Source: Flavobacteriales bacterium (GTDB lineage: Bacteria > Bacteroidota > Bacteroidia > Flavobacteriales_F > PHOS-HE28). From it: 64,000 bases of DNA. Where the stretch lies: NCBI GenBank assembly GCA_030584065.1, contig CP129489.1, forward strand, positions 1 through 64,000, in the 5' to 3' direction. The translations under genes were made by a program, and so were the position numbers. Numbering within the stretch: the first letter of the stretch is position 1; every line of letters starts with the position of its first letter. This document shows, one piece after another, positions 185 to 10,798 of this stretch. The notes under the pieces were generated by a model, which made no database searches, was not told the origin of the DNA, and saw only the letters and a program-made list of their open reading frames with translations.

Positions 185-481
185 ATGCGAAAACCGAAGC
201 GAACGCGCGAAGCTGTCCGCCGGCCGCGCCCGGCACCTGTGATCACCGACCGCGAGCTGCAGGTGTGCCGCCTGCTCTGCGCCCCCGACGAGCCCGCCGT
301 GAAGGCCCTGCCCAGCGTGCTGGACCTCTCGGTGAAGACCGTGCAGACCCACCAGTACAAGCTGTACCGCAAGCTGGGGGTGCATACCCGCACGGGCATG
401 CTGCTCAAGGCCATCGGCCTGGGCCTCATCCAGTGCCCGTGCCGCGGCAGGGCCGGTGGACAAGGGGCCGATGGGCCTTAG
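185..481 (+). CDS. Small LuxR/GerE-type helix-turn-helix protein
   Basis: A 98-residue protein that is almost entirely a LuxR-family DNA-binding domain. After about 18 basic residues it reads ITDRELQVCRLL, then LDLSVKTVQTHQYKLYRKLG, then a hydrophobic end. This is the four-helix GerE fold, and SVKTVQTHQYKLYRKL is the recognition-helix region. There is no receiver or sensor domain, so it is either a stand-alone regulator or the DNA-binding half of a split system. The frame is open further upstream to 59, but the residues there are not protein-like and the ATG at 185 gives a sensible N-terminus. The C-terminal tail (CPCRGRAGG and on) is low complexity and may be poorly conserved. The target is unknown. 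The nearest downstream gene on the same strand is hsdR, about 880 bp away. Confidence 0.6.
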   Translation: MRKPKRTREAVRRPRPAPVITDRELQVCRLLCAPDEPAVKALPSVLDLSVKTVQTHQYKLYRKLGVHTRTGMLLKAIGLGLIQCPCRGRAGGQGADGP

Positions 482-850
482 GCCGCTGGCTGGCTTCTGG
501 TCATTGGCTTAGCGGCTTCCAGGCTTGTTGGCCGCCAGGCCACTGGCTGCGCCACCCGATCACCTTGCAACAGGGACCCTCAGCCCTGCAGGTTGGCCCT
601 TGCCCCAAGGCCTCAGGCTTTCAGGCCACTGGTTGAGCGGCCGCTGGGCCTTGAGCTTTCAGGCCAATGGCTAACAGGCCGCCCGGCCACTTGGCTGCGC
701 CACCTTCTGCCGTTAAGCCTTGGGTCTTGATCCTTGAAGCTTGCTCCATGGGCCTTGTACTGGCCGCCAGCGGCGGGGGGCTTGGGGGCTGATGGGCTCA
801 CAGGCCTATAGGCTGTCAGGCCATTGGCTTATTGGCCCATGGGCTTTTCA
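481..850. repeat. Degenerate palindromic GGCCAnTGGC repeat zone
   Basis: This non-coding stretch consists of many imperfect copies of a short GC-rich palindromic word of the form (C)AGGCCAnTGGCTTA followed by GGCCGCTGGGCCTT. Clear copies begin near 498, 536, 620, 639, 660, 683 and 817. A longer word ending TTGGCTGCGCCACC occurs near 542, 691 and again near 1254. The copies vary in sequence and spacing, so this is not a simple tandem repeat. It lies between the LuxR-type gene and the convergent Xre-type gene, and I see no convincing open reading frame in it. Confidence 0.55.
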
Positions 851-1076
851 CCCGCGGCGGCGGATAGGTGCTCAGGGCCTGCAGGTCCACGCCGTAGAAC
901 AGCGTCAACCGCATCGCCTCATCCATCAGCAGCACCGCACGGCCGTTCTCAAGGCGGCTCAGCCGGCTCACCGTCAGGCCGCATTCCGCGGCCACCACCG
1001 CCTGCGGGTACCCCCGCGCCTTGCGCAGGGCTGCCAGCCGTGTACCAATCTGCTTGTGGAGGCTTATATCCGGCAT
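816..1076 (-). CDS. Xre-family helix-turn-helix transcriptional regulator
   Basis: An 86-residue protein that is mostly one Xre/Cro-type HTH domain: IGTRLAALRKARGYPQAVVA, AECGLTVSRLSRLENGRAVL, and then a helix containing LFYGVDLQAL. The SRLSRLENG segment is the recognition helix with the hallmark LENG. It is the length of a single-domain regulator. It is transcribed away from the hsdR gene, whose start lies 288 bp away. That arrangement resembles the controller (C) proteins that set the timing of restriction-modification expression, but this role is inferred from position only. The ATG is chosen because it directly precedes the HTH, with no room for further domains. Confidence 0.8.
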   Translation of the reverse strand: MPDISLHKQIGTRLAALRKARGYPQAVVAAECGLTVSRLSRLENGRAVLLMDEAMRLTLFYGVDLQALSTYPPPRVKSPWANKPMA

Positions 1077-1169
1077 CGGGAATGATCGGTCCGTTGGCCG
1101 AAAATAGGCATGGCTCCCCGCTTACGCACCCAGGCGATAGTGGTTGCCCTGGGCTTGTCGAAAGGTGTA

Positions 1170-1275
1170 GAAGGGGCCGCTGGGCTTACAGGCAGCCGGA
1201 GGCGGAGCGGCATTGCGGTATGGAGGCCACTGGCTTCCTGGTCAACAGGTCTCTTGGCTGCGCCACCTATTAGCT
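1170..1275. repeat. Second patch of GGCC palindromic repeats
   Basis: The spacer between the Xre-type gene and hsdR holds further degenerate copies of the words seen at 481-850. GGCCGCTGGGCTTACAGGC begins near 1179, GGCCACTGGCTTCCTGGTC near 1224, and TTGGCTGCGCCACCTATT near 1254. Apart from this I see no gene in 1077-1364. Confidence 0.5.
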
Positions 1276-1364
1276 TCTGACCAAGGACCACGCACTCATG
1301 ATCCGTGCATTACCAAGTTACCGCGCCATGTTCTGACCAAGTGCGCGTGCTATTTTGAGCCCCC

Positions 1365-3899
1365 ATGTCGAAAGAGGCGCGTTCCCGCATCAAGATCAAC
1401 AAGCTGCTCGAGCAGGCTGGTTGGCGCTTCCTCGCCGATGAGAACGGTCCGGCGAACATCACGCTGGAGACCGGCGTGAGCATCACGCCCGAGTACATGG
1501 CCGAGCAGTTCGGCGACGACTTCGAGAAGACGAAGAAGGGGTTCATCGACTACCTGCTGGTGGATAGCGACGGCTATCCCGTGGCCCTCCTGGAAGCGAA
1601 GCGCGAAAGCATCCACCCGCTCAACGCCAAGGAACAGGCCCGGGAGTACGCAAATGCAGCCAAGGTCAAGTACGTCATTCTCAGCAACGGCAATCTGCAC
1701 TACCTGTGGGAGTTGGAGCGCGGCAACCCGCAGGTGATCAGCCGCTTTCCCACACCGGAGTCCCTGGGTGCCCTCAAGCAGTTCGCGCCGGACCGCGCAC
1801 AGCTGGTGCACGAGCCGGTGGACGTGGACTATATCGCCCTGAGCCAGCTGCCCGGCTATGCACGCCGCCCCGAGTGGTCCGACCCGGCGCTGAAGGGCGC
1901 TTTCATTGAGCAGAACAAGCTCCGCTTCCTACGGCCCTATCAACTGGAAGCGATCAAGGCCATTCAAAAGGCGGTGGGCGAAGGCAAGGACCGCTTCCTG
2001 TTCGAGATGGCCACCGGCACGGGCAAGACCCTCACCAGCGGTGCGCTCATCAAGCTCTTCCTGCGCACCGGCAACGCCCGGCGCGTGCTCTTCCTGGTGG
2101 ACCGGCTGGAGCTGGAGGACCAGGCCAAGCGCGCCTTCCTGCTGTACCTGAAGAACGACTACTCCGTGTGCGTATACAAGGAGGACCCTGGGAATTGGCG
2201 AACGGCGGAGGTGGTGGTGAGCACGGTGCAGACGCTCCTTGCCGGGAACAAGTACCGGGACCAGTTCGAGCCCACGGACTTCGACCTGCTCATCAGCGAC
2301 GAGGCCCACCGCAGCATCGGCGGCAACAGCCGGGCGGTCTTCGAGTATTTCCACGGGTACAAGCTCGGCCTCACCGCCACGCCGCGCGACTACTTGAAGG
2401 GTGTTGATGAAACGGACATCCAAGAGGACCCCCGGGCTTACGAGATGCGTCTGCTGAAGGACACCTACACCACCTTCGGCTGCGACGATGGCAGGCCTAC
2501 CTTCCGTTACTCTTTGCTCAATGGCGTTACCGATGGCTACCTGATCAACCCGGTCACCATCGATGCCCGCACGGAGATCACCACCAAGCTCCTGAGCGAG
2601 GAGGGGTATGCTGTGGTGAAGCGGGATAGTGAAGGCGGGGAGCATGAGGAGACCTTTGTGCACCGCGACTTCGAGAAGAAGTTCTTCAGCCCGGAGACGA
2701 ACGCCGAGTTCTGCAAGGCTTTCCTTGACCATGCCCTGACGGACCCCATCAATGGCGAACTGGGCAAGAGCATCGTGTTCTGCGTGAGCCAAAGCCACGC
2801 CCGCAAGGTCACCGAGATCCTCAACAAGATGGCCCACGCACGCTGGCCGGGCCGCTACCAGAGCGACTTCGCCGTGCAGGTGACCAGCCTGGTGCAGGCC
2901 GCGCAGCAGATGACGGTGAACTTCGCCAACAACGTGCTGCTCGGCAACAGTCCCGTGTTGACGGGCTACCGCACCAGCAAGGCCCGGGTGTGCGTCACCG
3001 TGGGCATGATGACCACCGGCTACGACTGCGAGGACCTGCTGAACGTGGTGCTTATGCGGCCCATCTTCAGCCCCAGCGATTTCGTGCAGATGAAGGGGCG
3101 CGGCACCCGCAAATGGACCTTCAGCCACAGCGAACGCGATGAACGGGGCAACACGGAGACCGTAAGCCGCCCCAAGGAGGCCTTCAAGCTCTTCGACTTC
3201 TTCGCCAACTGCGAGTACTTCGAGGAGAAGTTCAACTACGACGCCAAGCTCAGCGTGGTGGTTCCCAAAGATGAACCGGGCGCAGGCCGTGACTTCATCG
3301 GTGGCACGGGCAAGTATCACAAGCACCTCGCAGCCGACCCCATCACGTCCTTTGAATCGAAGGCCGTGGGCGCGCAAGGCATGAAGATCGATCGCGAGAT
3401 GTTCCGCGACCGTTTCGAGCAGCGCATCCACGCCGATGAGCAGGTGCGGCGCAACGTGCAGGCCGGCAACTGGGACCAAGTGCTGCACTACATCCAGACC
3501 GAGGTGCTGGACAAGCCCGAGGAGTTCTTCACGCTGGAGAAGCTGCGCAGGGCCTACACCGTGGACCGCAAGCTGAGCCTGCGCGAGGTGGTGGAGAAGA
3601 TCTTCGGCATCATCGCGCGCTTCAAGTTGAAGGATGAGCTACTGGAGGAGGAGTTCCAGAAGTTCGTAAGCATCCATCCTCCTGCCGAAGAGGAGAATAT
3701 CACCGCCCTCCGCCACTTCTTCAAGGCCTACGTGGTGGACCAGGACGTGCGCGAGATCGTGAAGCAGAAGACCTTCCAGCGGCTGGCCAATCACCCGGCC
3801 TTGACCATGGAGGAGTTCAAGGCCATTACACCGAACAGCCGCGCCTTGGTGCCGGACTACATTGATACCTACGTGCCGCTTGACCAGTTCGCGGCCTGA
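1365..3899 (+). CDS. hsdR: Type I restriction endonuclease subunit R (HsdR, EcoEI-like)
   Basis: This 844-residue protein is the motor and nuclease subunit of a type I restriction system. It would pump DNA past the complex after recognition of an unmethylated target and then cut it. The N-terminus holds the nuclease fold with D62 and the E77-x-K79 pair in LLEAKRE. A superfamily 2 helicase core follows, with Walker A MATGTGKT near residue 216, the DEAH box near 312 (LLISDEAHRS), the SAT-like segment GLTATP, and motif VI in QMKGRGTRK. The C-terminal third resembles the EcoEI R C-terminal domain that contacts the methylase. The length is normal for EcoEI-type HsdR. The methylase-specificity gene starts 14 bp after its stop, so they form one operon. 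It appears intact. The start is the ATG that directly precedes the nuclease domain. Confidence 0.9.
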   Translation: MSKEARSRIKINKLLEQAGWRFLADENGPANITLETGVSITPEYMAEQFGDDFEKTKKGFIDYLLVDSDGYPVALLEAKRESIHPLNAKEQAREYANAAKVKYVILSNGNLHYLWELERGNPQVISRFPTPESLGALKQFAPDRAQLVHEPVDVDYIALSQLPGYARRPEWSDPALKGAFIEQNKLRFLRPYQLEAIKAIQKAVGEGKDRFLFEMATGTGKTLTSGALIKLFLRTGNARRVLFLVDRLELEDQAKRAFLLYLKNDYSVCVYKEDPGNWRTAEVVVSTVQTLLAGNKYRDQFEPTDFDLLISDEAHRSIGGNSRAVFEYFHGYKLGLTATPRDYLKGVDETDIQEDPRAYEMRLLKDTYTTFGCDDGRPTFRYSLLNGVTDGYLINPVTIDARTEITTKLLSEEGYAVVKRDSEGGEHEETFVHRDFEKKFFSPETNAEFCKAFLDHALTDPINGELGKSIVFCVSQSHARKVTEILNKMAHARWPGRYQSDFAVQVTSLVQAAQQMTVNFANNVLLGNSPVLTGYRTSKARVCVTVGMMTTGYDCEDLLNVVLMRPIFSPSDFVQMKGRGTRKWTFSHSERDERGNTETVSRPKEAFKLFDFFANCEYFEEKFNYDAKLSVVVPKDEPGAGRDFIGGTGKYHKHLAADPITSFESKAVGAQGMKIDREMFRDRFEQRIHADEQVRRNVQAGNWDQVLHYIQTEVLDKPEEFFTLEKLRRAYTVDRKLSLREVVEKIFGIIARFKLKDELLEEEFQKFVSIHPPAEEENITALRHFFKAYVVDQDVREIVKQKTFQRLANHPALTMEEFKAITPNSRALVPDYIDTYVPLDQFAA

Positions 3900-3913
3900 C
3901 GACCTTCCTGTAA

Positions 3914-6900
3914 ATGCTCGACAGCATCACCAAACGCCGCATTGACGACTGCCGCGACATCCTCGTAGGCAAGGTGCCCGACCCCAAGAGCCAGATCGAC
4001 CAGATCACCGTGGCGCTGATCTACAAGTTCATGCACGACATGGACCAGGAGGCCGTGGAGCTGGGCGGCAGCCCCACCTTCTTCGCCGCGCACACCGTGG
4101 TGGTGAACGGCAAGAAGGAGGTGAAGGACTACACCCCATACGCCTGGCCCAACCTGATGGCCACGAACCTGGGCGGCGAGGACCGCGTGAAGCTCTACGC
4201 CGAAGCCTTGGAACGCATGCCCGAGAACCCCGGGCTGCCCCAGCTGTTCCGCGACATCTTCAAGAACACCTACCTGCCCTACCGCGACCCGGCCACCTTG
4301 CGGGAGTTCCTGAAGCGCATCAGTGAGTTCACCTACGACCACAGCGAGAAGCTGGGCGATGCCTTCGAGTACCTGCTCAGCATCATGGGCAGCCAGGGCG
4401 ATGCCGGGCAGTTCCGCACGCCGCGGCACCTGATCGACTTCATGACGGCGGTGATCGACCCGCAGAAGCACGAAACGATCATGGACCCCGCCTGCGGCAC
4501 GGCGGGTTTCCTCATCAGCGCCTACAAGCACATCCTGCGGCACAACAGCAGCAACCTCGCGGCCGATGACCCGCTGGCCTTCCAGCTGCACGGCGTGAAG
4601 CAGGAGGACCTCACCGTGAGCGCCAAGAAGTACGCCGGCGACAAGCTGAGCCCCGACGACCGCAAGCGGCTGGTGCGGAACATCGTGGGGTACGACATCG
4701 ACCCCGGCATGGTGAAGCTCGCGCTGGTGAACCTCTACCTGCACGGCTTCCCCGAGCCGCACATCTTCGAGTACGATACCCTCACCAGCACGGACCGCTG
4801 GGAGGAACGCTTTGATGTGGTGCTGGCCAACCCGCCCTTCATGAGCCCGAAGGGCGGCATCAAACCCCACGGCAAGTTCGGCATCCCCAGCACCCGCAGC
4901 GAGGTGCTCTTTGTGGACTACATCGCTGAGCACCTCAACCCCAACGGCCGCGCCCTGATCGTGGTGCCCGAGGGCATCATCTTCCAAAGTGGGAATGCCT
5001 ACAAGGCGCTACGCAAGAAGCTGGTGGATGAGCACTACCTGGTGGGCGTGTTGAGCGTGCCCGGCGGTGTGTTCAACCCCTACAGCGGGGTGAAGACCAG
5101 CTTGCTCTGGTTCGACCGCGCGCTGGCGCGCAAGACGGACAAGCTCCTCTTTGTGAAGGTGGAGAACGACGGCTTCGACCTGGGCGCGCAGCGCAGGCCC
5201 ATCGCGCAGAACGACCTACCGGAGGCCTTTGCGCTGATGACGGACTACAAGCGGGCGTTGGTGGAGGGGATGGAGTGGGAGGCGCCGAAGGGATGGGAGG
5301 CGAAGGCACTGCAGGTTGAGCGTGAACGAATCGGTGCGAATGCGGAATACAGCTTGAGCGGTGATCGATTCTTGCACGCTCCATCAATGGGGGCACATGA
5401 TGTTCGCATGGTGCCGCTTGGTGAACTTGCCGATCTTGAATACGGCTACACGGAATCTGCAAGTGATGCCGGCGATGTACGCTTCTTGCGTATCACCGAC
5501 ATCGATGAGCATGGGCGTCTTCGCGAAGACGGGGCGAAGTACATCACCTTGACGGATGCGTCGCGGGACTACTTGGTGAAGAAGGACGACCTTCTTGTTG
5601 CGCGAACAGGTGCGACCTATGGAAAGACATTGCTCATTGAGAAGGATGCTGATGCGGTGTTTGCGTCATACTTGATCCGCATCCGATTGAAAGCGAAGGA
5701 TGTTCTTCCGAAGTACTACTGGCTCTTTACACAAACGGACGAGTACAAGAGACAGGCTGCGCGACTTGCCACTGGCGGTGGACAGCCACAATTCAATGGC
5801 GGTGCCTTGAAACAGCTCCAGATCCCCCTCCCCCCGCTCGCCGAGCAGGAAGCCTTGGTGGCGGAGGTGGAGGCCTACCAGAAGGTGATCGACGGGGCGC
5901 GGCAGGTGGTCGCCCACTACAAGCCGCGCATCACCATCGATCCGAGCTGGGAGATGGTGGAGTTGGGGGAGGTCGTGCAGGAAGCGCAGTATGGCCTGTC
6001 TGAAAAGATGAACACCGATGGGAAAGGCTGGAAGTGTTTCCGCATGAGTGAGATCCAAGGTGGTCTGGCAGTCGATACTGGGGAAATGAAATGTGCGGAT
6101 ATCAGTGAACAGGACCTCCTGAAGTACAGGCTTTACCCTGGCGACATCCTGTTCAACAGGACGAACAGCTATGAGCACGTCGGCAAGACAGGCATCTTTG
6201 AGTTGCAAGGTGATTATGTATTCGCGTCCTATCTCGTTCGACTTAAGATGAAGGATGGCGTAAACCCTTGGTTCATCAACTACGTGGTCAACACCGATTC
6301 GTTCCAAGCGGATCTGAAGCGATTCGTGAGTAGAGCGATCGGCCAAGCGAACATCAACGTGAGGTCACTTCAGACTTGCTTGGTACCCCTTCCCCCCCTC
6401 GGCGAGCAGGAGCGCATCGTAGCGGCCTTGGAGGAGGAGCGGCGCATGGTAGAGGGCTGCCACGCGCTGATCAAGCGGATGGAGGCGAAGGTGCGGGAGC
6501 GGGTGGCGCGGGTGTGGTCGTCTTCGCCAACGGCCTCGGCAGCCGATGGGGATGGCGGATCGGATGATCAAAGGGTCCAGGGTTCAGAACATACAAAGCC
6601 GGGGCAGGGGCACAGTGGTACTGCGGTGCCTCCGATGAACTACAACGCGCCGGACATGCAGCTGAACGCTGCGGCCGAGCCACCGTCGGCGAACGGTACA
6701 GCACATCCCACAGAGCGCAGGAAGCCGGGCCGCCCGCCCAAGGGGGATGCCACCACCGCGCAGGCCCAGGAAGCCATTGCCACCTACCTCAGTACGCACC
6801 CGGGTTGGCATGGCAAAAGCGGGGTGCTGGAAGCCACCGGCGTGGATGCCGCCAACTGGAACGCGGCGATCAGTGCGCTGCTGGAGAGCGGGAAGGTGGA

Positions 6901-6943
6901 ACGGCAGGGGGAGAAGAGGGGGGCACGGTATAGGGGGAGGTGA
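3914..6943 (+). CDS. hsdM: Fused type I methyltransferase-specificity protein (HsdM-HsdS)
   Basis: One uninterrupted 1009-residue polypeptide carries both the modification and specificity functions. Residues 1 to about 460 are an HsdM-type N6-adenine methylase with SAM-binding motif I DPACGTAGFL near 190 and catalytic NPPF near 305. Residues about 495-665 and 675-845 are two target recognition domains, each followed by the conserved HsdS spacer (IPLPPLAEQEALV and VPLPPLGEQERIV). These define the two halves of a bipartite target. A tail of about 130 residues is unusual: a low-complexity linker, an AT-hook-like RRKPGRPPKG near 933-942, then a small segment (HPGWHGKSGVLEATGV and on) resembling a winged-helix module. 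In most type I systems M and S are separate genes. Base composition drops inside the recognition domains, suggesting that they were exchanged. The partner is HsdR immediately upstream. Confidence 0.88.
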   Translation: MLDSITKRRIDDCRDILVGKVPDPKSQIDQITVALIYKFMHDMDQEAVELGGSPTFFAAHTVVVNGKKEVKDYTPYAWPNLMATNLGGEDRVKLYAEALERMPENPGLPQLFRDIFKNTYLPYRDPATLREFLKRISEFTYDHSEKLGDAFEYLLSIMGSQGDAGQFRTPRHLIDFMTAVIDPQKHETIMDPACGTAGFLISAYKHILRHNSSNLAADDPLAFQLHGVKQEDLTVSAKKYAGDKLSPDDRKRLVRNIVGYDIDPGMVKLALVNLYLHGFPEPHIFEYDTLTSTDRWEERFDVVLANPPFMSPKGGIKPHGKFGIPSTRSEVLFVDYIAEHLNPNGRALIVVPEGIIFQSGNAYKALRKKLVDEHYLVGVLSVPGGVFNPYSGVKTSLLWFDRALARKTDKLLFVKVENDGFDLGAQRRPIAQNDLPEAFALMTDYKRALVEGMEWEAPKGWEAKALQVERERIGANAEYSLSGDRFLHAPSMGAHDVRMVPLGELADLEYGYTESASDAGDVRFLRITDIDEHGRLREDGAKYITLTDASRDYLVKKDDLLVARTGATYGKTLLIEKDADAVFASYLIRIRLKAKDVLPKYYWLFTQTDEYKRQAARLATGGGQPQFNGGALKQLQIPLPPLAEQEALVAEVEAYQKVIDGARQVVAHYKPRITIDPSWEMVELGEVVQEAQYGLSEKMNTDGKGWKCFRMSEIQGGLAVDTGEMKCADISEQDLLKYRLYPGDILFNRTNSYEHVGKTGIFELQGDYVFASYLVRLKMKDGVNPWFINYVVNTDSFQADLKRFVSRAIGQANINVRSLQTCLVPLPPLGEQERIVAALEEERRMVEGCHALIKRMEAKVRERVARVWSSSPTASAADGDGGSDDQRVQGSEHTKPGQGHSGTAVPPMNYNAPDMQLNAAAEPPSANGTAHPTERRKPGRPPKGDATTAQAQEAIATYLSTHPGWHGKSGVLEATGVDAANWNAAISALLESGKVERQGEKRGARYRGR

Positions 6944-6985
6944 GGGAATGATGCGGTTCTCTCGTTAACCACAAGGTTGTCAACC

Positions 6986-7777
6986 ATGCGCATTGCCTAC
7001 TATGATGAAGCTGGGGATGACGGGGTGCCGGGCTCCAGTCCTGTCTTCGTGCTGGGCAGCATGTACATGCATTACCTGCACTGGCAGGGCAACTATGAAC
7101 GGGTCCAGCGCTTTCGTGGGCATTTGAGGGAACGCTACAAGTTTCCCGTGAAGCTGGAGATCCACAGCAAGGAGTTGCTGCTCAACAAGAACCCGTACCG
7201 CCATTTCGGGATCTCGGACGACGATCGGGTGGCGATCATCGGTGAGTGCTGCGACCTGATCGCTTCGTTGGATGCACGGCTGATGAACGTGGCCATCGTA
7301 AAGGCCCATATCCGCAATGGGGATTACCCCGTGCTGGACAATGCGGTCACCTATTCGGTGCAGCGCATCGAGAATGACCTCCGCGTGAAGTTCAATCCGA
7401 ACGAGCGCTTTCTGATCATCACGGACAATGGCCGCGTAGGCAAGATGCGGGCGACCACAAGGCGGATCCAACGGATCAACTTCATTCCTTCCAAGTTCGC
7501 TCAGGGATCATACCGGCAGGAGATCAGGACGCTGATCGAGGATCCCCTGCCCAAGGACTCCAAGGAGTCGCACTTCATCCAATTGGTGGATGTGGTGAGC
7601 AACATCGTGTACCTCTATGTCCTCTCTTCCCAAGGCGTGGGTGCCTTCCCGAACCGGATGCCCAAGACGGTGACCGCCGAGAAGGTGCGGGAATGGATGG
7701 ATCGCTTGGCACCTGTACTGAACACCAAGGCCAGTACATCGGACGCATACGGCGTTGTGATGTACCCGAAGCCTTGA
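6986..7777 (+). CDS. DUF3800 domain-containing protein
   Basis: A 263-residue protein of the DUF3800 family. It has the family landmarks YYDEAGDDG at the N-terminus, EIHSKELL near residue 55, a central FLIITDNGR strand, and SHFIQLVDVVS near the C-terminus. The conserved acidic residues in these segments suggest an RNase H-like fold, but no activity has been settled for the family as far as I know. It starts 42 bp after the fused methylase-specificity gene on the same strand and is probably co-transcribed with it. That puts it in a defence context. An in-frame TTG at 6977 would add three residues. The ATG at 6986 is preferred because family members begin right before the YxDExG motif. Base composition is lower in GC than the housekeeping genes further on. 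Confidence 0.82.
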   Translation: MRIAYYDEAGDDGVPGSSPVFVLGSMYMHYLHWQGNYERVQRFRGHLRERYKFPVKLEIHSKELLLNKNPYRHFGISDDDRVAIIGECCDLIASLDARLMNVAIVKAHIRNGDYPVLDNAVTYSVQRIENDLRVKFNPNERFLIITDNGRVGKMRATTRRIQRINFIPSKFAQGSYRQEIRTLIEDPLPKDSKESHFIQLVDVVSNIVYLYVLSSQGVGAFPNRMPKTVTAEKVREWMDRLAPVLNTKASTSDAYGVVMYPKP

Positions 7778-7805: not shown

Positions 7806-8115
7806 GGAACACCACCTACGGCGCATTCGCGCTTTCAGTGGTTCGAGGCAAAGTTAAGGCAAGCTGCTTGGCCGCGGCACAATTTTCGGGTCCTTCCAAT
7901 AGTGTTATGAACCTAGTTGCTCACCACGGCCCGGCTTGATGTTCACCTCAGACCACCGCAGGCTCCCCCGCAGGGGACCCTGCCCGAAGCCTGTCCTCGT
8001 GCCCTCATCCCCTCGCTGAACCTCCGGTAGCCGAACCTCAGCCCACCACCGCCTCCCGCTCCCTCTATACCATATATACTGTCCGCACTCACCCCGGTGC
8101 CGGCCCCAAGCCCCC
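7806..8115. other. Intergenic region with no recognised gene
   Basis: About 310 bases between the restriction operon and the repeat array. Frames are open on the minus strand, but their translations are low complexity and continue through the array, so I do not call a gene. The most notable feature is an AT-rich, partly palindromic word TATACCATATATAC near 8066-8079, which stands out against the GC-rich background and could be a promoter or a protein site. Confidence 0.35.
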
Positions 8116-8514
8116 GAGCTTGGACCCAAACGCGCCGGACTTGGACCCAAGTTCCGCGAACTTGGAAGCAAACGCGCCGGACTTGGACCCAAGTTCCGCG
8201 AACTTGGAAGCAAACGCGCCGGACTTGGACCCAAGTTCCGCGAACTTGGAAGCAAACGCGCCGGACTTGGACCCAAGTTTCCCGGACTTGGAAGCAAACG
8301 CGGCGAACTTGGACCCAAGTTCCGCGAACTTGCAAGCAAACGCGCCGGACTTGGACCCAAGTTCCGCGAACTTGGAAGCAGATGAGGCGAACTTGGACCC
8401 AAGTTTCCCGGACTTGGAAGCAAACGCGCCAGACTTGGACCCAAGTTCCGCGAACTTGGACCCAAACTCGGCGAACTTGGACCCGGTTTCGGGAAATCTG
8501 GACCCAAACTGAAC
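8116..8514. repeat. Array of nineteen 21-bp repeats (iteron-like)
   Basis: Nineteen contiguous units of exactly 21 bp run through this stretch without any insertion or deletion. Two unit types mostly alternate: one carries ACTTGGACCCAAGTTCC, the other ACTTGGAAGCAAACGCG. The first contains the near-perfect palindrome CTTGG-AC-CCAAG. Eight exact copies of this 12-mer start at 8140, 8182, 8224, 8266, 8308, 8350, 8392 and 8434, always 42 bp apart. The last three units are more diverged. Because 21 is a multiple of three and the unit contains no stop in any frame, the array is open in all six frames. On the plus strand one frame reads heptads such as LDPSSAN and LEANAPD. There are no unique spacers, so it is not a CRISPR array. 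Whether it is a coding repeat or a DNA-binding array is undecided. Confidence 0.85.
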
Positions 8515-8768
8515 GAGGAACGGTAAGGCAGTGCCACTGCCGGGCCTTGGCGGGCGGCCGATGAGGGCATTTCCGGGGGCTATTGAGGCGGCTTGAACGC
8601 GCTGGAAGGCCCGTGGCACGGGTGCCTGCAAAAGCGGGGTGTTGGTTGGGGCAAAGGCATCGGGAATTCGCCTGATGGTGGGCGGATGACAAAATGGGCC
8701 GTCCTCGCGAAAAAGGGGCAAAACCATTCACCCGGCCCCCCACAAGGGGCCACAAAAACCCAAGCCAC
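8515..8768. other. Intergenic region between the repeat array and the FN3 gene
   Basis: About 250 bases without a gene that I can support. It probably carries the promoter of the fibronectin-domain gene, but I see no clear box. Confidence 0.3.
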
Positions 8769-9389
8769 ATGGCACGAGTGAAACTTGGCCTGGAAGGCCT
8801 CCCCGCCACGGGACTCGTGGCAAAAGCGCAGGCGATGCACGACGCGGTCGTGGCCAACGCCACCATCTTCCCCAACCCCATACCGACGCCGCCCGAGTTC
8901 CAGGCGCTCATCGACGAGCTGGCTGCGGCCAACGCGGCGGTGGACGCCAACCGGGGGCGCAAGGAATACCTGGAGCGGGACAACGCCGATGCGGCCCTGC
9001 GCCTTGGCGTGAAGCAGTGGGCAGGGTATGTGCAAATGGTGAGCGGCGGCGACGCCACCACCATCAGGCTGTCCACCTTCGAGGTGGTGAAGCGGGGCAG
9101 CCCCGTGGGCGAGCTGCCTCCGCCGACCAACCTGGCCACCCGCCTCACCAGAACGACCGGCCGCGCGGCCCTGGTGTGGGACCGCGAGGAGGGCACCGAC
9201 ACGCACCATGTGTACATGAGCACGAGCAACGACCCCTTCAACTGGGAGTTGATCGGGGTAACGAGCAAGAGCCGCTACAACGTGGACAACTTGGAGCCCG
9301 GCAAGTTCTACTGGTTCGCGGTCACCGCCATCGGCGCCGCCGGTGAGAGCAGCATGAGCGAGCCCTGCCGCGTGATGGCCGCCGCCTAA
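8769..9389 (+). CDS. Fibronectin type III domain-containing protein
   Basis: A 206-residue protein in two parts. The first 110 residues are largely helical (for example EFQALIDELAAANAAVDANR), with no signal peptide or membrane segment. Residues from about 112 to the end form one fibronectin type III domain: PPPTNLATRLT, ALVWDREEGTDTHHVYMS, then YNVDNLEPGKFYWFAVTAIG and a final strand. The WxxxxG..Y.VY pattern and the L.PGKFYWFAVTA core are typical of FN3. Without an export signal it is either cytoplasmic or assembled by a non-Sec route. I do not recognise a specific function. The frame is open further 5', but the ATG at 8769 is the first start that gives a protein-like N-terminus. It stands alone between the repeat array and the minus-strand HD-domain gene. 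Confidence 0.75.
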   Translation: MARVKLGLEGLPATGLVAKAQAMHDAVVANATIFPNPIPTPPEFQALIDELAAANAAVDANRGRKEYLERDNADAALRLGVKQWAGYVQMVSGGDATTIRLSTFEVVKRGSPVGELPPPTNLATRLTRTTGRAALVWDREEGTDTHHVYMSTSNDPFNWELIGVTSKSRYNVDNLEPGKFYWFAVTAIGAAGESSMSEPCRVMAAA

Positions 9390-9472: not shown

Positions 9473-10711
9473 CTATCCCGCAAGCCACCGCGGCCACGCC
9501 AGGTACCACTTCGTCACCGGCCGCGCCAGCGCCTGGATGCCGAGGTTATCGCTCGCCTCCGCGATGTCGCGCAGGGTGCCGTCCTTGTAGAGGAGCTCGA
9601 TGCGGTCCTTGGCGGGGTCGTAGGCGTTGTTGACGATGCTGCCGGTGAGGACGAAGTGCGCGGCATCGGCGAATGGAATGCCGAGTTGGGTGGTCACCTG
9701 TTGGCGCAGCTCGGCCACCCGCGTGTCGTCCCACGGAATGTTCTGCAGCCGGATGCGGAGGTTGCGCCGCGTGACCAGGTCGGTGGCGAGCTGCGAAAGC
9801 ACCCTGTCCGGGTGGTCGCCCCACACCTTCACGGCGCCCATGATGTCGTGGTCGTCCAGCTTCAGGAAGTCGGCGAGCACGGCGGGGTCGTTGAAGCTGG
9901 CGCGGGTATGGCGGGCGCTGAGGAAGCGCAGCAGGGCGGGCGATGCGAAGAGCGGTGTGCCGCCGAGGGCCAAGGCCTTGGCGCGGCGCAGGGTCTCCAC
10001 CAGCATCATTTCGCAGGCCACCACGGTCTTGTGCAGGTACACCTGCCAGTACATGAGGCGCCGCGCCACCAGGAACTTCTCGATGCTGTAGATGGCCTTC
10101 TCCTCCACCACCAGCCTGCTTGCCCCGGCCTCCGAGCCGGGGTCCACCACCTGCAGCATCTTGATGATGCGCTCGCCGCCGATGACCCCCTCGCTGACGC
10201 CGGTGTAGAAGCTGTCGCGGTTCAGGTAATCGATGCGGTCCACATCCAGCTGGCTGCTGACGAGCTGGTGCAGGAAGCGCTTGGGGTATTGGTCGCGGAA
10301 GATGCGTATGCCGAGGTCCAGCGCGCCATCGAACTCGGTGTTGAGGGCGTCCATCACCAGCGCGCTCACATCCTCGTGGCCCACGCCCTCCACCAGGCTG
10401 TGCTCCAGCGCATGGCTGAAGGGGCCGTGCCCCACATCGTGCAGCAGGATGGCGATGCGCGCGCCCAGGGCCTCCTCCTCCGTGATCTCGTGGCCCTTGC
10501 CGCGCAGGGTGGCGATGGCCTCGCCCATGAGGTGCATGGCGCCCAGGGCATGATGGAAGCGGGTGTGCAGCGCCCCGGGATACACCAGGTGCCCCAGCCC
10601 CAGCTGCTTGATGTAGCGCAGGCGCTGGAACCATGGATGGTCGATCAGGCGCAGCAGCACCGGATGCGGCACGGTGATGAAGCCGTAGATGGGGTCGTTC
10701 AGGATCTTCAT
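9473..10711 (-). CDS. HD-domain phosphohydrolase (dNTPase/SAMHD1-like)
   Basis: A 412-residue cytoplasmic metal-dependent phosphohydrolase of the HD superfamily. The metal-binding set is visible: RFHHALGAMHLM (H53), ILLHDVGHGPFSH (H91-D92), and LDVDRIDYLNRD with the last metal ligand at D156 or D158. The YINRD/YLNRD region and overall length match the dGTPase- and SAMHD1-like branch that hydrolyses deoxynucleoside triphosphates, or related nucleotide substrates. Substrate cannot be told from sequence. It reads KILNDPIYGFI at the start, as in the many Bacteroidota homologues annotated only as HD-domain proteins. It is divergent from porX. The intergenic region holds a long hairpin and a minus-strand promoter box, so the hairpin would be in its 5' untranslated region. 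Confidence 0.88.
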   Translation of the reverse strand: MKILNDPIYGFITVPHPVLLRLIDHPWFQRLRYIKQLGLGHLVYPGALHTRFHHALGAMHLMGEAIATLRGKGHEITEEEALGARIAILLHDVGHGPFSHALEHSLVEGVGHEDVSALVMDALNTEFDGALDLGIRIFRDQYPKRFLHQLVSSQLDVDRIDYLNRDSFYTGVSEGVIGGERIIKMLQVVDPGSEAGASRLVVEEKAIYSIEKFLVARRLMYWQVYLHKTVVACEMMLVETLRRAKALALGGTPLFASPALLRFLSARHTRASFNDPAVLADFLKLDDHDIMGAVKVWGDHPDRVLSQLATDLVTRRNLRIRLQNIPWDDTRVAELRQQVTTQLGIPFADAAHFVLTGSIVNNAYDPAKDRIELLYKDGTLRDIAEASDNLGIQALARPVTKWYLAWPRWLAG

Positions 10712-10726
10712 TCTTCTCGATTGCGT

Positions 10727-10798
10727 ATTGCTGATTCCTGATCGCTGATACCAGCCTCAGGCCGGTCCCGCTGGAATCAGCGATCAGGAATCAGCAAT
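10727..10798. repeat. Long near-perfect hairpin between the HD gene and porX
   Basis: Two 23-base arms, 10727-10749 and 10776-10798, are exact reverse complements. After a single A/A mismatch the pairing continues inward for five more pairs (10751-10755 with 10770-10774), leaving a 14-base loop. The arms are built from the word CTGATTCCTGATCGCTGAT. It lies directly upstream of the HD-domain gene start and could act as RNA structure in that leader or as a mobile palindromic element. Confidence 0.85.

Follow-up and report, generated by a model that had tools for sequence, protein, structure and literature searches.

The window, that is the whole stretch of 64,000 nucleotides that was analysed, shows a row of short direct repeats between a restriction-modification (R-M) block and a gene of the FN3 family, and raises the question of whether such a row is a protein-binding array or a neutral minisatellite and, if it is bound, by which protein and to what effect. 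Comparison with related loci indicates that it belongs to a type of gene cassette, apparently undescribed, of which related bacteria have dozens of copies; searches of the open-access literature found no account of FN3 genes accompanied by arrays of 21- or 22-bp units. Each cassette has an FN3 gene, its own upstream array of 21- or 22-bp units and, often, an adjacent gene for a DNA-binding regulator, and from this association the array is probably a long row of binding sites for the regulator.

The window array, a proposed operator array on the forward strand (8115-8508), was delimited with TRF and a periodicity test. It contains about 19 units, with a period of 21 bp, 18.8 copies and 0% indels, as in the original prediction of nineteen units without length change. 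Two unit types, A and B, alternate and give a 42-bp higher-order repeat (8.8 copies, 8115-8484, 88% match). Eight exact copies of CTTGGACCCAAG (span 8140-8445, no strand) start at 8140, 8182, 8224, 8266, 8308, 8350, 8392 and 8434, with a constant step of 42 bp; when up to one mismatch was allowed, 10 matches were found, whereas 100 shuffles gave 0.15 on average and never more than 2. The number and spacing of these copies agree with the first reading of the locus, but the description of the 12-mer as an exact palindrome does not hold: its reverse complement is CTTGGGTCCAAG, so that 5-bp arms (CTTGG/CCAAG) flank a central AC. Five copies of a longer inverted repeat, CCAAGTTC-CGC-GAACTTGG, whose arms are perfect, are present at 8147, 8189, 8231, 8357 and 8441 (span 8147-8459, no strand), and the alternate units show only a degenerate dyad (CTTGGAAGCAAA).

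The paired motif has no other site in the 3.9-Mb genome of the organism, and the window array gave no blastn match among 38 related genomes. Array DNA searched in related genomes, phages and plasmids also had no match, because unit sequences are private to each cassette. The expectation that the 12-mer would recur in the lineage thus failed, since it was absent from the rest of the genome and from the 38 relatives. The same cassette is present in a metagenome-assembled genome that is about 96% identical over a stretch of 8 kb; there the contig breaks inside the array and the units are changed. A promoter scan with the sigma-70 consensus, which is not of the Bacteroidota type, found none, and no convincing conserved k-mers shared by array and gene were detected.

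Downstream of the array is the FN3-family gene (8769-9389, forward strand, 206 aa), assigned by Pfam (PF00041), the family alignment and the substitution pattern. Its product has a helical N-terminal domain and a C-terminal FN3 domain. The start at 8769 agrees with relatives, and an in-frame start at 8694 is also possible. Between the window gene and that of a 96% identical relative (L040) there are four synonymous and no non-synonymous differences. The gene belongs to a multi-copy family with up to 19 matches per genome within the genus, and the genome of the window contains three further FN3 cassettes, each with its own 21- or 22-bp array of unrelated sequence. Of 395 genomes of the class, 54 gave a match to the family in a domain search, a sporadic distribution; family loci with the 21- or 22-bp period come mostly from the genus, with some in other families of the class and outside the class. 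In two pairs of loci (L078 with L079, and the window with L040) the FN3 gene exceeds the flanking DNA in nucleotide conservation, synonymous sites included, and the array is the least conserved part, a pattern that suggests a possible recent exchange of the FN3 gene.

The feature shared by the arrays is their period. In an unbiased scan of periods from 15 to 33, the best upstream period was 21 in 63 and 22 in 15 of 82 FN3 loci (78 together), and most degenerate arrays below the shuffle threshold still choose 21 or 22. Most upstream regions of paralogues and homologues carry their own array according to TRF, while 79 of 82 regions downstream of the same FN3 genes, taken as control, contain no array. 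The 21-bp periodicity is also present upstream of all six distant homologues of full length (TRF or profile); these come from other families, and two lie outside the class. In 464 kb of the genome of the window, where the background was 400 kb of spaced stretches, a search for further arrays with such a period and a length of 120 bp or more found none. Arrays range between 10 and 26 units, and one (L109) has a 66-bp repeat made of three 22-bp units. Mapped on the FN3 protein tree, the period shows a single change, with all 22-bp arrays in one clade (98% SH-aLRT support). Furthermore, one contig that does not carry an FN3 gene (L157, G041:C113) shows two arrays in 21-bp register with 42- and 63-bp higher order, at 1-306 and 512-852, the first of which is similar to that of L087.

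Most cassettes, among them the four of the window genome, have unit sequences unrelated to one another, but those of close homologues are similar: motif similarity rises with FN3 identity both in 21-bp arrays (Mantel r 0.32, p 0.001) and in 22-bp arrays (r 0.35, p 0.002). Conserved columns of the 21-bp units form one contiguous core, and the rest is a variable spacer of fixed length (Fisher 4e-11); in the 22-bp set, with 14 arrays, the contiguous core is only suggestive (0.052). Dyad symmetry is enriched in relation to column-permuted units (mean z 1.54, Fisher 3e-23). It is significant in 27 of 67 arrays (40%), with the window array, at p 0.12, not significant when taken alone, and the significant dyads centre on the core (p 0.001).

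These data bear on the explanation that the arrays are neutral or selfish minisatellites which lie upstream of FN3 genes by chance. Bacterial intergenic VNTRs and minisatellites are head-to-tail repeats with fast unit turnover, and the arrays resemble them in both respects: where two FN3 genes are 99.2% identical in nucleotide sequence, nearly every array unit differs, with the period of 21 and a TTGATCAAGT-like core kept in both. However, the unit length is fixed at 21 or 22 across the protein family and locked to the protein clade, the place is exclusively upstream of one gene family, and variation spares one core in each 21-bp unit. A drifting unit length, which had been named as the outcome that would speak against a binding array, was looked for across cassettes and not seen. 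Since a minisatellite does not adequately account for a fixed period, a fixed place and a core-spacer structure, chance seems an improbable origin of the arrays. A helically phased protein-binding array is thus supported at the level of the class, by fixed period, core plus spacer and dyads, as the original prediction had proposed, although the 12-mer on which that prediction was built is not the feature conserved in the lineage.

The length of 21 bp also corresponds to seven codons, so the array could encode a heptad repeat. Several frames are open through the window array, and of the 20 changes in its 42-bp register, 14 share a codon phase. Over 53 21-bp arrays, however, substitutions show no codon periodicity (Fisher 0.94), seven of these 53 have no open frame on either strand, and 22- and 44-bp arrays break the reading frame. 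The one-phase changes of the window were treated as chance because the result for the class is negative. A coding array was consequently rejected for the class and can hardly be credited for the window: no frame is under selection, and arrays of 22 bp cannot code in register. A selected coding frame was the second outcome named beforehand as contrary to a binding array.

An array that is transcribed, or exposed as single-stranded DNA, might instead act as a scaffold that folds or self-associates through its dyads. Self-pairing would permit any sequence, 22 nt make two turns of A-form RNA, and compared with column-permuted versions the arrays have a somewhat more stable fold (mean z -1.4 and -1.5). 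This stability, however, shows no strand preference, the dyad arms do not covary within units (4424 observed and 4432 expected), and G-T mismatches are not in excess over A-C. These results make RNA hairpins unlikely, and we regard a nucleic acid scaffold of this kind as an unlikely role for the array.

A DNA-binding protein from the cassette itself is the preferred candidate for recognition of the units. An HTH gene, LuxR or Xre, was found near the array in 40 of 82 loci. LuxR/GerE genes, some confirmed by Pfam, are near 24 of the 21-bp loci, the window included, usually on the same strand and either immediately in front of the array or close behind the FN3 gene, with a few other arrangements. 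Xre genes are near 11 of the 15 22-bp loci, nearly all on the same strand and directly upstream of the array; the locus with the 66-bp repeat is a further Xre case. No LuxR gene was found at any 22-bp locus, and one 21-bp array (L156) has a weak Xre match. As the split between 21 and 22 bp coincides with one clade, the link between period and HTH type rests on a single evolutionary event. Directly downstream of the FN3 gene, LuxR-type cassettes often encode a conserved protein (about 165 aa) that has an FDPT-type motif, and some encode a GNAT acetyltransferase (L072, L077, L084, L087, L099, L100, L107, L111, L135, L234, L236 and L237).

At the other 42 of the 82 loci (38 with 21-bp and four with 22-bp arrays) neither a LuxR nor an Xre gene was found in the sequence examined, some of these stretches being short, and a universal partner gene for these cassettes was sought and not found. 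One subclade of this kind (L085, L108, L127, L128 and L248) has a divergent gene of about 200 aa upstream of the array, with no Pfam match. That about half of the loci have no detected HTH gene would fit a different binder, either the FN3-family protein itself, through its helical N-terminal domain, or a host factor, with the HTH neighbour incidental. The FN3 protein is the sole constant partner of the arrays, and both period and motif track its phylogeny. Profile matches of the FN3 protein in PDB are nevertheless to FN3 domains only, with no DNA-binding signature and no PDB match for the helical N-terminal domain, and an AlphaFold2 model built with no alignment (mean pLDDT 39) is too poor to judge; in addition, a common host factor cannot account for four unrelated arrays in one genome. 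Binding by the FN3 protein or by a host factor therefore seems rather unlikely, though less so than the minisatellite, coding or RNA explanations.

For recognition by an HTH regulator, the window provides a candidate in a short GerE/LuxR-type protein of 98 aa (185-481, forward strand), proposed as the cognate regulator. Its best match is the short GerE protein located directly upstream of the array in a sister cassette (L073/L235/L244; 39% identity, 1e-13), it is also matched by the family HMM, and phmmer against PDB found the DNA-binding domains of EsrB, GerE and SsrB with E-values of 1.5e-4 to 1e-3. The ORF alone has no Pfam match at E 0.01. Fold matches of a weak AlphaFold2 model, made without an alignment (pLDDT 52), are all GerE domains. 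Among the binders suggested earlier for this array, a LuxR-type protein is the best candidate; PorX has no support, and the Xre-type HTH gene of the window (819-1121, reverse strand), which is part of the R-M block, is not the type of partner expected for a 21-bp array.

The candidate regulator sits 7.6 kb from the array. Between them lies a block with genes on both strands (819-7777) which contains, besides the Xre-type gene, an untyped ORF of 844 aa (1365-3899), a fusion of HsdM and HsdS (3914-6943) and a DUF3800 protein (6977-7777), these three on the forward strand. The array thus lies between a type I R-M/DUF3800 block and the FN3 gene, as had been noted before. The block is most simply a later insertion, and the GerE ORF, judged from sequence, is the likely partner of the array, displaced from it by the R-M and DUF3800 genes. 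On the other side, a gene for an HD-domain protein (9473-10711, reverse strand), convergent with the FN3 gene, forms a conserved flank of the site. An insertion of the cassette flanked by a duplicated 3' end of the HD gene was not found in the window. In another locus (L042, G003:C66, 2600-3500) the HD gene is followed downstream by two small genes that resemble a toxin-antitoxin pair; after these, some 80 bp of the HD 3' end recur in degraded form, which would fit an insertion site at the end of this gene. In addition, the window shows, between the HD gene and the PorX-like gene divergent from it, a near-perfect inverted repeat (10727-10798; 74 bp with 84% self-complementarity).

The R-M neighbourhood is not restricted to the window. 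In the FN3 loci of 13 congeneric genomes (G000, G003, G005, G007, G010, G012, G016, G021, G022 and others), an N6-methyltransferase gene is found at a distance of 10 kb or less from 13 of 69 cassettes, against 1.2 expected (p 7e-10), an excess of about ten times; the 13 include three of the four cassettes in the genome of the window. HNH_2 and MmeI genes are also found near cassettes. Such numbers could mean that the arrays are a feature of defence islands linked to R-M function, for example as sets of methylation-sensitive recognition sites. The majority of cassettes, however, have no N6-methyltransferase or R-M neighbour, their other typed neighbours are housekeeping or surface genes, and shared insertion hotspots would account for the excess. 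A functional link to R-M is accordingly very improbable, and the excess likely reflects shared insertion hotspots or defence islands.

The explanation that we prefer, to which we give a probability of about one half, is that the array is a helically phased operator for the HTH regulator of its own cassette and controls the FN3 gene. Its observed parts are the array, the fixed period, the exclusive place upstream of FN3-family genes, the cores, the dyads and the HTH neighbours. The window array would offer about 19 binding sites, two turns of B-DNA apart, to a dimeric regulator from the same cassette, here the product of 185-481. With one dimer per unit, all dimers would lie on one face of the DNA, which would favour cooperative assembly, and a nucleoprotein filament of bound regulators may form and switch the FN3-family gene downstream. 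In this way, the HTH protein may bind the array cooperatively and control the FN3 gene. We propose that each cassette is a private regulator-site pair in which the site sequence would drift together with the regulator and the spacing would be under selection, so that sites diverge between cassettes and the step stays fixed.

Autoregulated operators of LuxR/NarL (GerE) and Xre proteins are dyad sites bound by HTH dimers, with the regulator gene adjacent, and have few sites. The cassettes are alike in their dyads and in the HTH gene next to the operator, but show 10-26 sites at an exact two-turn spacing. Arrays of this length exceed the needs of simple repression or activation, which counts against an ordinary operator. 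The array might rather be a scaffold or counting device for a nucleoprotein filament, within an undescribed and widespread class of chromosomal cassettes that combine an FN3 protein, a private, fast-evolving and strictly two-turn-phased array and a switchable LuxR- or Xre-type partner, and of which genomes collect many mutually orthogonal copies; we put this forward as a tentative idea that is less probable than the operator.

In theta-replicating plasmids, iteron arrays combine direct repeats of about 17-22 bp in tandem, element-specific units and helical phasing with an adjacent gene for the cognate binding protein. The cassettes resemble them in the repeats, the private units and the phasing, and often in having a gene for a putative cognate protein close by. 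An iteron- or centromere-like array would serve DNA segregation or replication of a resident element and not transcription of the FN3 gene, and an arrangement of contiguous sites with the cognate DNA-binding protein next to them is typical of partition sites. The parS of pSM19035 is such a contiguous array of short sites, bound by dimers of the ribbon-helix-helix protein omega/ParB with a need for at least four contiguous repeats (PMC9499535); binding at the window array, in turn, is inferred, its units are of 21 bp, or 22 bp in other cassettes, instead of 7 bp, and the neighbours are LuxR- or Xre-type HTH proteins. Partition centromeres (parS/parC) also come with a ParA-type motor gene, whereas no ParA or Rep gene was found among the neighbours typed, and in particular no Rep gene among the window genes scanned or 40 typed neighbour proteins of other cassettes. 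Furthermore, the cassettes are chromosomal (in the genome of the window, a chromosome of 3.9 Mb in one contig), with many paralogous copies per genome, up to 19 family matches in one of them, and with the FN3 protein as constant partner. No full-length family member was found in the phage, plasmid and IMG/VR collections searched, where one plasmid search gave only partial FN3-domain matches on two Delftia plasmids. A role in segregation or replication is for these reasons improbable, to the same degree as a neutral minisatellite; by analogy the cassette may work in the manner of an iteron array or a centromere, without belonging to either class.

The combination of a fixed period with a free sequence makes these loci a natural experiment on helical phasing, in which about 80 arrays share only the 21- or 22-bp step and the gene partner. 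Arrays that are usually dismissed as VNTRs can be parts of gene cassettes, recognisable only through comparison of paralogues. If the pairing of regulator and array is true, the cassettes would supply regulator-operator pairs by the dozen, orthogonal to one another and with 10-26 cooperative sites each, and a multi-copy family of FN3 proteins that is currently unannotated would gain a function.
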